A DNA stretch of 64,000 bases from assembly GCF_015644585.1 (NCBI RefSeq), contig NZ_JADOBI010000003.1:372001-436000 (forward strand), written 5' to 3'. The position numbers and the translations under genes were made by a program. Below, in pieces: positions 8,713-61,293 of this stretch; the first letter of the stretch is position 1, and each line of letters opens with the position of its first letter. Source of the stretch: Rahnella laticis (lineage in GTDB: Bacteria; Pseudomonadota; Gammaproteobacteria; Enterobacterales; Enterobacteriaceae). The notes below the pieces were generated by a model, which was not told the origin of the DNA, did no database searches, and saw only the letters and a list, made by a program, of their open reading frames with translations.

Positions 8713-8770
8713 TTTAGGCACTGTTTGAACGATATCCGTTCTGACCACCCGATTATGAGAAGCTGAAAAC

Positions 8771-8854
8771 ATGTTCATGATTACCCGTCTCCTAGGCCTA
8801 CTACTCAACGCAGAAAATTTGCGCGGTAAGCCAGTGGGCGAAAATCAGAACTGA
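8771..8854 (+). CDS. leuL: leu operon leader peptide
   Basis: This 27-codon ORF reads MFMITRLLGLLLNAENLRGK and ends PVGENQN. The R-x-x-G-LLL-NA core and the RGKPVG tail are those of enterobacterial LeuL. Five leucine codons fall in a six-codon stretch (CTC CTA GGC CTA CTA CTC), three of them the rare CTA, so ribosomes stall when leucyl-tRNA is scarce. That lets an antiterminator form and RNA polymerase pass the attenuator at 8875-8904. A second in-frame ATG at 8777 could be the start; the ribosome-binding site is weak for both. Confidence 0.88.
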   Translation: MFMITRLLGLLLNAENLRGKPVGENQN

Positions 8855-8874
8855 TTTCAACTTCCACAGACAAT

Positions 8875-8904
8875 AAACCCGCGCCGATGCGCGGGTTTTT
8901 TTTT
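8875..8904 (+). terminator. leu operon attenuator
   Basis: A perfect 10-bp stem (AAACCCGCGC/GCGCGGGTTT) with a CGAT loop runs into nine Ts, 20 nt after the leuL stop and 45 nt before leuA. A GCGCGG segment at 8821-8826 within leuL could pair with the 5' arm of the stem and thus compete with it. Confidence 0.9.
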
Positions 8905-15418: not shown

Positions 15419-17080
15419 ATGACCTCGTCCCGTTTGCAACAGCAGTTCATCAGATTGTGGCAAAGCTGCCACGGCGAAGAAACCGAAACCACTTTGCTGG
15501 CGTTATCGGAAATCCTGAACTGCTCGCGGCGGCATATGCGGTCCCTGCTCAGCACCATGCAGGATCAGGGGTGGCTCAGCTGGGATGCCGAAGCCGGGCG
15601 CGGTAAGCGGTCAAAGCTGACTTTTTTGTACACCGGCCTTGCGCTCCAGCAACAACGCGCCGAAGAACTGCTTGAACAGGACCGGATCGATCAGCTGGTA
15701 CAGCTGGTTGGCGATAAAAGCATGGTGCGCCAGATGCTGTTATCCCAGCTGGGGCGCAGCTTCCGTCAGGGCAAACATATTCTGCGCGTGCTGTACTATC
15801 GCCCGCTGTTTAACCTGCTGCCTGGTACTATGTTACGCCGCTCGGAAACGCACATCGCGCGACAGATTTTCAGCGGACTGACGCGCATAAATGAGGAAAA
15901 AGGGGAAGTAGAAGGTGATCTGGCCCATCACTGGCAGGAAATCTCTCCGTTGCACTGGCGGTTTTATCTGCGTCCGGCCATTCATTTTCATCATGGTCGT
16001 GAGCTGGAAATGGCCGATATTATTACCACCTTCGCTCGTCTCAAAACACACCGCTTATTCGGCAATATCGTCTCAGTGATCTCGCCGACGCCAAACGTCA
16101 TCGACATCCATCTGAACGCGCCCGACCACTGGCTGCCGTGGCTGTTCGGGAATATTCACGCAACAATCCTGCCGCAGGAATGGGAGTCATTGCCCGATTT
16201 TGCCCGCCATCCGGTGGGAACCGGCCCGTATGCCGTGGTACGGAATCAGAAAACGCAGCTGCGGATCCGCGCGTTTGACGAATATTTTGGATTCCGGGCG
16301 CTGATCGATGAGGTCAATATCTGGGTTTTACCTGAACTCAGTGAGGAACTGGTGCATTCCGGCGTCCAGCTTCAGGCTGACGAATCCGGCAAGAGTGAGC
16401 TTGAAAGCCGCCTTGAGGAAGGTTGTTATTTTCTGCTTTTCGACCAGCGTTCGCCGGTCGGCCAAAACGCACAAACGCGCCAGTGGCTGTGCGATTTGTT
16501 CAATCCGATTGCGCTGCTCAACGCCGCCGAGCCGGTTTACCAGCGTTACTGGTCACCGGCGTACGGCCTGTTGCCGCGCTGGCATCATAAAGCGCTGCTG
16601 CCTCGCCCGCCCAAACCTGACGGTCTCACGCAGGTCACGCTGACGTTTTATAACGAGCACTCGGAACATCACGCCATCTGCAATGCACTGCGTCCGCTGC
16701 TGGCAGCAGAAGGCATTGAGCTGGTGATTCAGATTGTCGATTATGCGGTGTGGTATCGCGGCGGCGTGAAAACTGATCTGTGGCTGGGCAGTGCCAACTT
16801 CACGTTGCCGCTCGAGTTTTCGCTGTTTGCCTCGTTCTTCGAACTGCCGCTGCTGGCGTATTGCTTCCCGCAAACAATGGATGAAGACGCCGCGTTATGG
16901 CACGCCGGAAAGCTCTCGATTGCCGACTGGAGCCAGAAGCAGATCGCCAGCCACCATATTCATCCGCTGTTTCATCACTGGCTGGTTTTGCAAGGCCAGC
17001 GCAGTATGCGCGGCGTGCGGATGAACACCCTCGGCTGGTTCGACTTCAAATCTGCCTGGTTCGCGCCGCCCGACAGCTAA
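15419..17080 (+). CDS. sgrR: SgrR, transcriptional activator of sgrS
   Basis: SgrR (553 residues) pairs an N-terminal winged-helix DNA-binding region (about 1-115, with [15 protein letters not shown] and a [19 protein letters not shown] helix-turn-helix) with a C-terminal periplasmic solute-binding (SBP_bac_5) domain. That domain presumably senses a sugar phosphate in the cytoplasm. It ends [15 protein letters not shown], as in E. coli. It is transcribed divergently from sgrS, about 70 bp apart, the classic arrangement for activation of sgrS and autoregulation. It has no signal peptide, consistent with a cytoplasmic sensor. Confidence 0.97.
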
Positions 17081-17123: not shown

Positions 17124-17364
17124 TTCTCAACGGGGTGCCCGAGAGACTTCTTTTGTAATAAAGAATGACCTCGATTTTTAAACGCCGCGAGCGCGTGTTC
17201 AGCGGGTGAAGTCCAGCGCACAGAAAGCGGAGCGTACACAAAGTACGTGAGCATTTCGAGCACTGCACGACGCCCGATCAACACACGCGCAGCACGTTTA
17301 AATATGGCTGAGACCTGATACCCGTCGAACCTGATCCGGTTAACCCCGGCGGAGGGATTTGAGA
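17124..17364 (+). ncRNA. TPP (THI-box) riboswitch of thiBPQ with an expanded P3 arm
   Basis: All conserved aptamer parts are present in order. P1 strands are TCTCAA (17125-17130) and TTGAGA (17359-17364); the P2 strand and core are CGGGGTGC (17131-17138). The T-loop motif CTGAGA is at 17308-17313, ACCCG at about 17320-17324, and the P4/P5 arm ends GGCGGAGGGA. Thiamine pyrophosphate binding would shut off thiBPQ. Unusually, about 170 nt separate the two sides of P3. These include a TTCTTT/AAAGAA hairpin and a ~131-nt palindrome at 17174-17305. In E. coli this RNA is also known as SroA. Confidence 0.92.
17174..17305. repeat. Palindromic element inside the P3 arm of the TPP riboswitch
   Basis: The element begins TTTTTAAACGCCGCG and ends CGCGCAGCACGTTTAAATA. 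Its ends are near-perfect inverted repeats, and the whole can fold as one long imperfect hairpin with a short ACAAA loop between GTAC and GTAC (near 17238-17252). Length (~131 bp) and architecture resemble ERIC-type non-autonomous repeats, but its sequence differs from the ERIC copy at 14918-15044. It encodes no protein. That it is a mobile or repeated family is inference from one copy. Confidence 0.65.
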
Positions 17365-17418
17365 CTGTGCGATGCTCACTCAAAATCCTTTGCCCCTTTT
17401 CTTTTTTGGAGCGCAAAG

Positions 17419-18402
17419 TTGAAAAAATTATTGTCCTGCCTGCTGTTACTTTCTGCACCTGCCTTTGCTGCAAAACCCGTTCTGACGGTATATACCTACG
17501 ATTCCTTCTCTGCCGACTGGGGCCCCGGCCCGGCGATCAAAAAAGCCTTTGAGGCACAGTGCGGCTGCGAACTGAAATATGTCGCGCTGGAAGACGGCGT
17601 ATCTCTGCTGAACCGTCTGCGGATGGAAGGCAAAAACACGAAAGCGGACGTGGTGCTCGGTCTGGATAACAACCTGTTGCAGGCCGCTGAGCAAACCGGC
17701 CTGTTTGCCAAAGCGCCGAAAACCGATGCTAAACTGACGGTGCCGGGTGGCTGGAATAACACGACGTTTGTGCCTTACGACTACGGTTATTTCGCGTTCG
17801 TGTATGACAAAAATAAACTGAAAAACCCGCCAAAAAGCCTTGATGAGCTGATCAACAGCGACCAGAAATGGAAAGTGATTTACGAAGATCCGCGCACCAG
17901 CACGCCGGGTCTCGGCCTGATGCTGTGGATGCAAAAAGTCTATGGCGACAAAGCGCCTGAAGCGTGGCAAAAACTGGCAGCGAAAACCGTGACCGTCACC
18001 AAAGGCTGGAGCGAGGCTTACGGCCTGTTCCTCAAAGGCGAAAGCGATCTGGTGCTGAGCTACACCACTTCTCCGGCGTATCACATTGTCGAAGAGAAGA
18101 AAGACAATTATGCCGCCGCTGACTTCACCGAAGGTCATTACATGCAGGTGGAAGTCGCGGGCCAACTGGCCAGCAGCAAACAGCCAAAACTGGCTGAACA
18201 GTTCATGAAATTCGTCACTACTGAAGATTTCCAGAAAGTCATTCCGACCGGCAACTGGATGTATCCGGTGATCAGCACGCCACTGCCTGATGCCTTTAAA
18301 CAGCTGACTGTACCGGCAAAATCCTTGCAATACAGCGCACAGGATGTGGCTTCTCACCGCAGCGAATGGATTCAGGCATGGCAGAACGCCGTCAGCCGTT
18401 GA
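17419..18402 (+). CDS. thiB: ThiB (TbpA), periplasmic thiamine-binding protein
   Basis: ThiB captures thiamine, thiamine phosphate and TPP in the periplasm for the ThiPQ importer. With a TTG start at 17419 the protein is 327 residues, exactly the E. coli length. It begins with a signal peptide (LKKLLSCLLLLSAPAFA), then AKPVLTVYTYDSFSADWGPG. GGAG stands 7 nt upstream of the TTG; the in-frame codon at 17359 lies inside the riboswitch and is rejected. The solute-binding fold is complete, with the family signature GWSEAYGLFLKGESDLVLSY. It is the first gene of thiBPQ, controlled by the TPP riboswitch. Confidence 0.97.
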   Translation: MKKLLSCLLLLSAPAFAAKPVLTVYTYDSFSADWGPGPAIKKAFEAQCGCELKYVALEDGVSLLNRLRMEGKNTKADVVLGLDNNLLQAAEQTGLFAKAPKTDAKLTVPGGWNNTTFVPYDYGYFAFVYDKNKLKNPPKSLDELINSDQKWKVIYEDPRTSTPGLGLMLWMQKVYGDKAPEAWQKLAAKTVTVTKGWSEAYGLFLKGESDLVLSYTTSPAYHIVEEKKDNYAAADFTEGHYMQVEVAGQLASSKQPKLAEQFMKFVTTEDFQKVIPTGNWMYPVISTPLPDAFKQLTVPAKSLQYSAQDVASHRSEWIQAWQNAVSR

Positions 18403-60059: not shown

Positions 60060-61193
60060 TTAACGTGTCAGATCATCGAAAAACTTTTTCACGCCGTCCA
60101 GAAAGCTTTTAGAGCGCGGGCTATTTTTTTCGCCCGATACGCCACCAAAGCTTTCTTCCAGATCACGCAGCAATTGTTTTTGCTTTTCGCTCAGGCTGAC
60201 CGGTGTTTCGACTACAACACGGCACATTAAGTCGCCCTGTGCGCCGCCACGTACGGATTTCACACCGCGTCCGCGCATACGGAACATCTTACCGGTTTGC
60301 GTTTCGGCTGGGATCTTCAGGCTCACGCGACCATCAAGCGTAGGAACCTCAATTTCGCCACCCAGTGCAGCCATCGCAAAGTTGATTGGCACTTCGCAGT
60401 ACAGGTTGTTGCCTTCGCGCTCGAAGATTTTGTGCGCTTTGACCTGAACCTGAACGTACAGATCGCCTGACGGTGCGCCATGCTCGCCCGCTTCGCCTTC
60501 ACCTTCCAGACGAATACGGTCGCCGGTGTCAACACCCGCAGGAATTTTCACGGACAGCGTTTTCGAACGTTCTACGCGGCCATGACCGTGACATTTGTTG
60601 CACGGATCTTTGATCACTTTACCGCGGCCCTGACAGGTCGGACACGCCTGTTGCACAGTAAAGAAGCCCTGACGCATCTGCACCTGGCCCGCACCGTGAC
60701 AGGTTGGACAGGTCGTTGGTGAGCTACCCGCTTTCGCGCCGCTGCCGTGGCAAACGTCACATTCATCCAGTGTCGGGATGCGGATTTCTTTGGTGACACC
60801 ACGAACGGCCTCTTCCAGAGTCAGATCCATGTTGTAACGCAGATCTGAACCCCGGCTGGCACGCTGACGGCGACCGCCGCCAAAGATGTCGCCAAAGACG
60901 TCACCAAAGATGTCGCTGAAATCTGCACCGCCGCCGCCGTAACCACCGCCACCGCCCATGCCGCCCTGTTCAAAGGCTGCATGACCGTACTGGTCATAGG
61001 CCGCGCGCTTTTGCGCATCGGTCAGAATTTCGTAAGCTTCTTTAATTTCTTTAAATTTGCTTTCAGACTCTTTATCGCCCTGATTACGGTCAGGGTGATG
61101 CTTCATTGCCAGGCGCTTGTAGGCCTTTTTGATTTCGCGCTCATCGGCCGTTTTGGAAACGCCCAACAGCTCGTAATAATCTTGCTTCGCCAT
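60060..61193 (-). CDS. dnaJ: DnaJ, Hsp40 co-chaperone
   Basis: DnaJ delivers unfolded substrates to DnaK and stimulates its ATPase. The 377 residues show, in order, the J domain with HPD (about 33-35), a Gly/Phe-rich linker with repeated GGGG and DIFGD units, a zinc domain with four CxxCxGxG repeats ([32 protein letters not shown]), and the C-terminal substrate-binding domains. I start at ATG 61193 ([14 protein letters not shown]). It is cotranscribed with dnaK, 100 nt downstream. Confidence 0.98.
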
Positions 61194-61218
61194 GCTTTTT
61201 CCTGCCCTCAACATGCGT

Positions 61219-61250
61219 GCACGGGCGTAGAGTTTCCTCGACGCCCGTGC
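61219..61250 (-). other. Hairpin in the dnaK-dnaJ gap
   Basis: A perfect 10-bp stem GCACGGGCGT/ACGCCCGTGC with a 12-nt loop and no T-run. It may stabilise the dnaK message or set the DnaK:DnaJ ratio. From memory, E. coli has a small RNA, tpke11, annotated in the same gap; I cannot show that one exists here. Confidence 0.5.
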
Positions 61251-61293
61251 TGGTTTTCAGTAATGAACTCTTACTGTGCCCGCTAAAGGGCGA

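Follow-up and report, generated by a model that had tools for sequence, protein, structure and literature searches.

The thiB leader of Rahnella laticis appears to be a TPP riboswitch that acts on translation, with a P3 arm formed by a resident, self-folding and tolerated copy of a dispersed palindromic repeat, a reading that we hold with a probability of about 0.73. The computed part of this explanation comprises a family of repeats, a single origin of the thiB copies in their outer sequences, conserved pairing, an allele with an exact 101-nt deletion and tandem alleles. The leader would be a clear case of a dispersed repeat turned into part of a ligand-sensing RNA. Long, deleted, halved, doubled and fourfold alleles exist in nature, so what P3 does can be tested directly.

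The thiB leader and its extended P3 arm

The leader lies between sgrR and thiB in the 64,000-nt stretch of DNA that was analysed (the window; Table 1), and the ThiB protein encoded there is 100% identical to that of Rahnella sp. AA. As the earlier note on this sequence had stated, every THI-box core part is there in the right order, both in the sequence and in a constrained fold. The conserved core letters, the P1, P2 and P4/P5 pairings and the position before the thiamine gene thiB with a switchable platform, whose OFF hairpin is weak, assign the leader to the TPP riboswitches; those of the RF00059 family in Enterobacterales thiB leaders have the same core motifs, order, gene and platform. 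The difference is in P3. Its two sides, described earlier as about 170 nt apart, measure 168-169 nt apart in the window, compared with 7-42 nt in the short class, which makes up 56 of the 76 leaders measured, and long-arm thiB leaders as a group have repeat-made P3 arms of 134-525 nt. The long palindrome proposed at 17174-17305 folds at -56.7 kcal/mol (z -6.58, 0/200 shuffles equally stable), and within it 126 nt form one long hairpin. The small TTCTTT/AAAGAA hairpin of the earlier note corresponds to a side hairpin closed by CGAG and CTCG, which has no counterpart in the 145-nt Rahnella arms L037 and L044.

Table 1. Features of the thiB region and of the second repeat in Serratia leaders (window positions unless a locus is named)
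Feature	Position	Strand	Basis or detail
TPP riboswitch aptamer of thiB, extended P3	17125..17364	+	core motifs, constrained fold, partial RF00059 match
P1 5' side, TCTCAA	17125..17130	+	sequence; pairs with TTGAGA 17359-17364
P2 5' side, CGGG	17131..17134	+	sequence; pairs with CCCG 17321-17324
P3 arm including base GCC 17137-17139 / GGC 17306-17308	17137..17308	+	sequence, P3 measurement, constrained fold
Side hairpin within P3 (CGAG/CTCG, CTTCTTT/AAAGAA)	17140..17173	+	predicted folds
Long P3 hairpin formed by the palindromic repeat element, TTTAAACG/CGTTTAAA ends	17177..17302	+	fold, homologous covarying arms, element tree
59-nt core common to dispersed repeat copies	17211..17269	+	sole R1 match of the window, 85.9 bits
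Conserved CTGAGA junction	17308..17313	+	sequence
P4/P5, CCGG 17336-17339 / 17346-17349	17330..17355	+	sequence, constrained fold
Expression platform hairpin, would exclude P1 and free the ribosome site (putative ON state)	17348..17394	+	inverted repeat, fold
CTTTGC/GCAAAG hairpin over GGAG ribosome site 17408-17411 (putative OFF state)	17388..17418	+	fold
thiB, thiamine ABC transporter substrate-binding protein, TTG start	17419..18402	+	ORF; NCBIfam TIGR01276 526.9 bits, cut-off 317
sgrR, gene 5' of the thiB leader	15419-17080		NCBIfam 985.3 bits
Serratia second repeat	L106:1218-1342, L109:1206-1329, L112:1204-1328

The Rfam model RF00059 did not reach its gathering score (54.3 bits) in a scan of the 64-kb window. 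A smaller search matched just 17276-17374 at 39.9 bits, with the 5' half of the model falling inside the P3 arm, so the covariance check proposed earlier gave a partial match and not a passing one. Among 20 loci searched at the cut-off, 6/6 leaders with a P3 of at most 44 nt passed compared with 2/14 long ones, and the orthologues with a 44-nt P3 scored 58.3 (R. bruchi), 63.8 (R. inusitata) and 60.8 bits (G001). Since the score follows P3 length, we treat the low window score as a detection limit. Fungal TPP riboswitches, in which P3 averages ~150 nt, are likewise reported incompletely by RF00059 when P3 is long (PMC11683625). They share the long P3 and the incomplete matches with the present leaders, and a repeat origin is not known for them. 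With 12/14 of the scanned long-arm leaders below the cut-off, inventories miss TPP switches in bacteria just as they do in fungi.

Because the element folds on itself, it would close P3 and leave P1, P2, P4, P5 and the CTGAGA junction free; the earlier expectation that the aptamer core can still form despite the element holds in structure prediction. The median cost of forcing P1 and P2 was 1.37 kcal/mol in 29 distinct long leaders and 1.40 kcal/mol in 53 shorter ones (p 0.24), in a set without five rows lacking exact motifs (L037 included) and with the remnant arms counted among the shorter. Forcing P1 and P2 in the window leader takes 2.48 kcal/mol, more than in any of the 53 shorter leaders (maximum 2.19), and the leaders of Yersinia similis (7.66) and L136 (4.11 kcal/mol) are still costlier outliers. 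The Y. similis arm (L108:1151-1423) looks decayed and, at that cost, is predicted to compete with the aptamer. When arms of 100-200 nt were shuffled in 27 leaders, the mean cost was 2.75 compared with 1.38 kcal/mol for native arms, and 71/324 shuffles matched the native arm. As the median costs are equal and 71/324 shuffles do as well, the arm is predicted to be compatible with the aptamer core, while tuning of the arm for the core is not supported.

The two platform hairpins are mutually exclusive, and the OFF hairpin forms once the 5' side of the ON hairpin is removed. Folding 17340-17430, which forms the hairpin at 17348-17394, gave -26.4 kcal/mol, with 3/200 shuffles equally stable; folding 17365-17430, which forms the CTTTGC/GCAAAG hairpin, gave -9.4 kcal/mol and did no better than shuffles (105/200 equally stable). 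A strict platform motif is found in 84/109 leader rows (34/46 long, 50/63 shorter), and 22 of the 25 rows in which it is absent are Yersinia, Serratia or Erwinia variants. On these predictions, TPP most likely still turns thiB translation off: binding would close P1, releasing CTTTGC to cover the ribosome site and shut thiB.

A dispersed palindromic repeat family

The earlier note had called for a search for other genomic copies of 17174-17305, and BLAST of the element against the window's genome returned the full copy and two core copies (58 and 52 nt). The dispersed copies of this genome are found in the gap from nrdD to nrdG (L005) and next to the uvrD end (L006), the latter a piece truncated by the locus boundary and below the model cut-off. 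Across 14 genomes of the genus Rahnella, a near-full copy is present once in 11, core-only matches in two and none in G006. Core matches occur in 78/198 genomes of the bacterial family. At a loose E-value, places covering 80% of the core query occur in 5375/5426 E. coli genomes, with a median of 5 and a maximum of 8 per genome; the best match in E. coli K-12 is between pyrH and frr. Core copies within housekeeping operons (L139, L140, L054) were seen at dnaN/recF, where the genes were identified by eye, and at pyrH/frr, where they are annotated.

A covariance model of the core, R1, was built from 49 copies that partly included thiB arms. R1 searches were limited to 150 scored candidates in each genome, which may make the copy numbers too low: at least 3 core matches in the window's genome, at least 3-11 in each of the 14 Rahnella-genus genomes, and at least 23, 12, 15, 9, 0, 9, 17, 4, 9 and 9 in ten other genomes. 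In all, 23/24 genomes carry at least 3-23 copies, and one Serratia carries 0. The window's arm belongs to this family, with two further core copies in the same genome. Matches at dispersed loci reach 86.6 bits, some of these copies having been used in R1, and many dispersed copies have longer flanks in common (CAGTTTGG...CCAAAATGG) and repeat core loop letters such as GGA/GA.

RSA/BEE95 is 152 bp long and has 6 copies in E. coli, a number that the core copy number there (median 5) fits. RSA/BEE95 and the RSA-like SPED repeats are described as low-copy elements scattered between enterobacterial genes (PMC5604773, PMC3751351) and, likened by these descriptions, resemble the present repeat in dispersal, intergenic place and copy number. 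RSA/BEE95 is therefore a likely candidate name for the family, judged by copy number and kind. BoxC, with 56 bp and 32 copies in E. coli (PMC2267715), was compared by length and copy number only; its length fits the core, and its copy number does not (median 5, highest 8, versus 32). As a candidate name it was dropped, on copy number and the longer shared flanks, in favour of a putative RSA-like family.

Some thiB arms also match, on the minus strand, the Xanthomonas sRNA sX9 (RF02228; PMC9029176, PMC10924375, PMC6337395), with three over the cut-off of 44 bits: Hafnia L131 at 48.0, L138 at 47.5 and Yersinia aleksiciae L098 at 44.6. In contrast, nothing over the cut-off was found in the window, its genome or the 14 Rahnella-genus genomes (three weaker matches in the genus), and 14 control genomes gave no sX9 match. 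Set against the features of MITEs, the element has inverted ends, and AGCAAGT repeats flank 101 nt absent from the short alleles, which keep the left end of the element. A review raises the possibility of MITEs forming riboswitches (PMC10969869), and a pneumococcal BOX element lies between two T-box riboswitches of trp (PMC3049150). The latter, as described, is also a small repeat embedded in a riboswitch leader with apparently preserved function, although it sits between aptamers and not inside one. Among the titles listed in searches of the open-access literature, none concerned a repeat within the aptamer of a bacterial TPP riboswitch, and the core strings and box C gave no paper.

Alleles and conserved pairing of the arm

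The leaders of 80 named thiB loci were collected and 76 measured, leaving out L105, which has no motifs, and L106, L109 and L112, which carry another insert. Sixteen have a long P3 (145-285 nt), four carry remnants (44 or 58 nt) and 56 are short. Long arms occur in Rahnella, Hafnia alvei, 7/11 named Yersinia, Erwinia rhapontici and two further genera, as well as in a record named Hafnia psychrotolerans whose thiB groups among Rahnella in the gene tree. A pattern for the arm's right end matched 18/392 family genomes, of which 15 are thiB arms from six genera and three (L234, L236, L237) are chance matches outside leaders; being exact, the pattern undercounts and misses the long arms of G003, G008 and G013. 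In the thiB leader of Erwinia aphidicola (L105), none of the TPP riboswitch motifs is present, so this leader has probably lost the switch.

Within Rahnella, 11/14 genomes have the long arm and the other three a 44-nt remnant, which led us to reject a recent, strain-private insertion. The insertion proposed in the earlier note thus stands as a palindromic repeat element inside P3, but not as a recent or private event, given these counts and the single clade across genera described below. Removing the 101 nt between two AGCAAGT copies from the 145-nt arm yields the three 44-nt arms, with 2, 3 and 3 mismatches of 44; in a control with one 44-nt arm, 2000 shuffled long arms never fell below 21 mismatches. 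These arms were considered as empty sites that predate the insertion, which was rejected because they retain the left end of the element and are therefore remnants. The genomes that carry them hold separate places in the Rahnella thiB tree, and all three alleles have a 5' part of the 145-nt type, so one deletion that recombination carried to all three is just as possible as three separate events. Four short Yersinia arms showed no fit to a remnant in three comparisons (14-17 mismatches of 25-26).

Other alleles are halved or multiplied. The arm of two E. persicina genomes is cut down to its right half, with 36/44 letters matching the E. rhapontici end. In E. rhapontici, P3 holds two 119-nt tandem units in a 285-nt arm (L085:1125-1362), and in G183 it holds four in a 525-nt arm (L137:1126-1720), both as assembled. 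The element could be removed by slippage between the short direct repeats found at its foot, and unequal exchange could multiply it.

Conservation of the hairpin was measured over 37 pairs in 24 aligned arms, where 96.8% of 885 cells are paired compared with at most 41.3% for slid pairing partners. Two-sided changes occur in 15/37 pairs versus 11.2 in shuffles (3/500 reach 15) and in 102 cells versus 33.4 (0/500 reach 102); the covariation score was reached by 0/500 shuffles, and further pair types numbered 36 versus 32.7 (50/500 reach 36). The shuffles ignore relatedness and the structure was derived from the same sequences, and two of the measures, two-sided pairs and further pair types, are weak against shuffles. 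Selection may have kept the hairpin pairing. Unpaired and paired columns are conserved to the same degree (entropy 0.578 vs 0.528, p 0.28), which is more than a spacer would need.

The conservation of unpaired columns across genera raises the question of whether the arm is a functional module, its internal loops bound by protein or cut by RNase, or a stable leader RNA, adding a second layer of thiB control. The recurrence of the loop letters GGA/GA in dispersed copies and the presence of the arm in six genera are in keeping with such a role. However, loop conservation belongs to the entire repeat family, the arm is truncated in three genomes of Rahnella and two of E. persicina, and it is absent in Pantoea/Mixta, Serratia and some Yersinia with a recognisably similar platform; we consider this role unlikely. 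A related and comparably doubtful idea is that a mobile palindromic repeat was domesticated as a riboswitch arm, with loops that recruit a factor or RNase and with long, tandem and deleted alleles that tune thiamine uptake differently among species.

Origin of the arm and a second repeat in Serratia

In a tree of 112 repeat copies, the 32 thiB copies fall on one side of a branch and 80 dispersed copies on the other with support 100/100, in an alignment of few columns whose bootstrap had not settled and in which some genomes appear twice (named and G copies) or contribute several tandem units; the decayed Y. similis arm was left out of the 32. The outer 36 nt of each side alone gave the same single thiB clade. 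The dispersed copies nearest to it are L203 and L212, both from a Yersinia proxima genome, and L173; these copies share GTAGCGAGC-type ends. A tree of the core alone did not recover the thiB clade and needed 7 changes, although one clade was not rejected (p-AU 0.12); conversion of cores is thus possible. On the thiB gene tree, arm presence and absence take 6 changes, and 24 rows of Enterobacteriaceae s.s. and 24 of Pantoea/Mixta are all short. The Erwinia arms nest among the Rahnella arms, but the Erwinia thiB genes do not, which suggests leader transfer or convergence.

The 6 changes on the gene tree and the core-only tree that lacks a single thiB clade could also be read as independent insertions of the repeat into a P3 hot spot, genus by genus, and Serratia leaders do show repeats entering a TPP riboswitch. 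We regard this as improbable, since the 32 thiB copies group by their outer stems in a single clade, with support 100, against the 80 dispersed copies collected, and all 24 aligned arms share one orientation. The simplest reading of the arm distribution is one entry and repeated loss, with change counts that cannot separate gain from loss. The repeat may have come into P3 a single time, ahead of the split of the genera, or into one lineage from which it then spread partly by leader transfer. A long ancestral arm unrelated to any repeat is very improbable, for although the arm is widespread and covarying, matches to the core of up to 86.6 bits at dispersed loci (some copies in the model) and the GTAGCGAGC-type ends of L203, L212 and L173 next to the thiB clade refute it unless all dispersed copies derive from thiB. 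The earlier note had named an ancestral arm in relatives, with covarying stems unrelated to any repeat, as the finding that would overturn it; relatives do carry the arm with covarying stems, but the arm is repeat-related.

Contrary to the earlier note, P3 is not the sole tolerant loop: in three leaders from Serratia, a different repeat occupies the P3a region. In L106, L109 and L112, an insert of ~125 nt with TATACCC/GGGTATA-type ends lies between CTGAGA and ACCCG (Table 1). It is a dispersed repeat in its own right, with 36 matches in the L106 genome and 21 in the L103 genome, in which the R1 search found no core. The insert resembles Rfam V_AS5 below the cut-off (52-67 of 96 bits). R1 matched the Serratia-type repeat weakly in L245, L246, L247 and L249 (12.4-18 bits, best E 0.042), and judging by these sequence matches the two repeats may be distantly related.

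Elsewhere in the window, Rfam searches identified a leucine operon leader at 8757-8902 (RF00512, 89 bits) and a tpke11 sRNA at 61192-61262 on the minus strand (RF02031, 71.4 bits).
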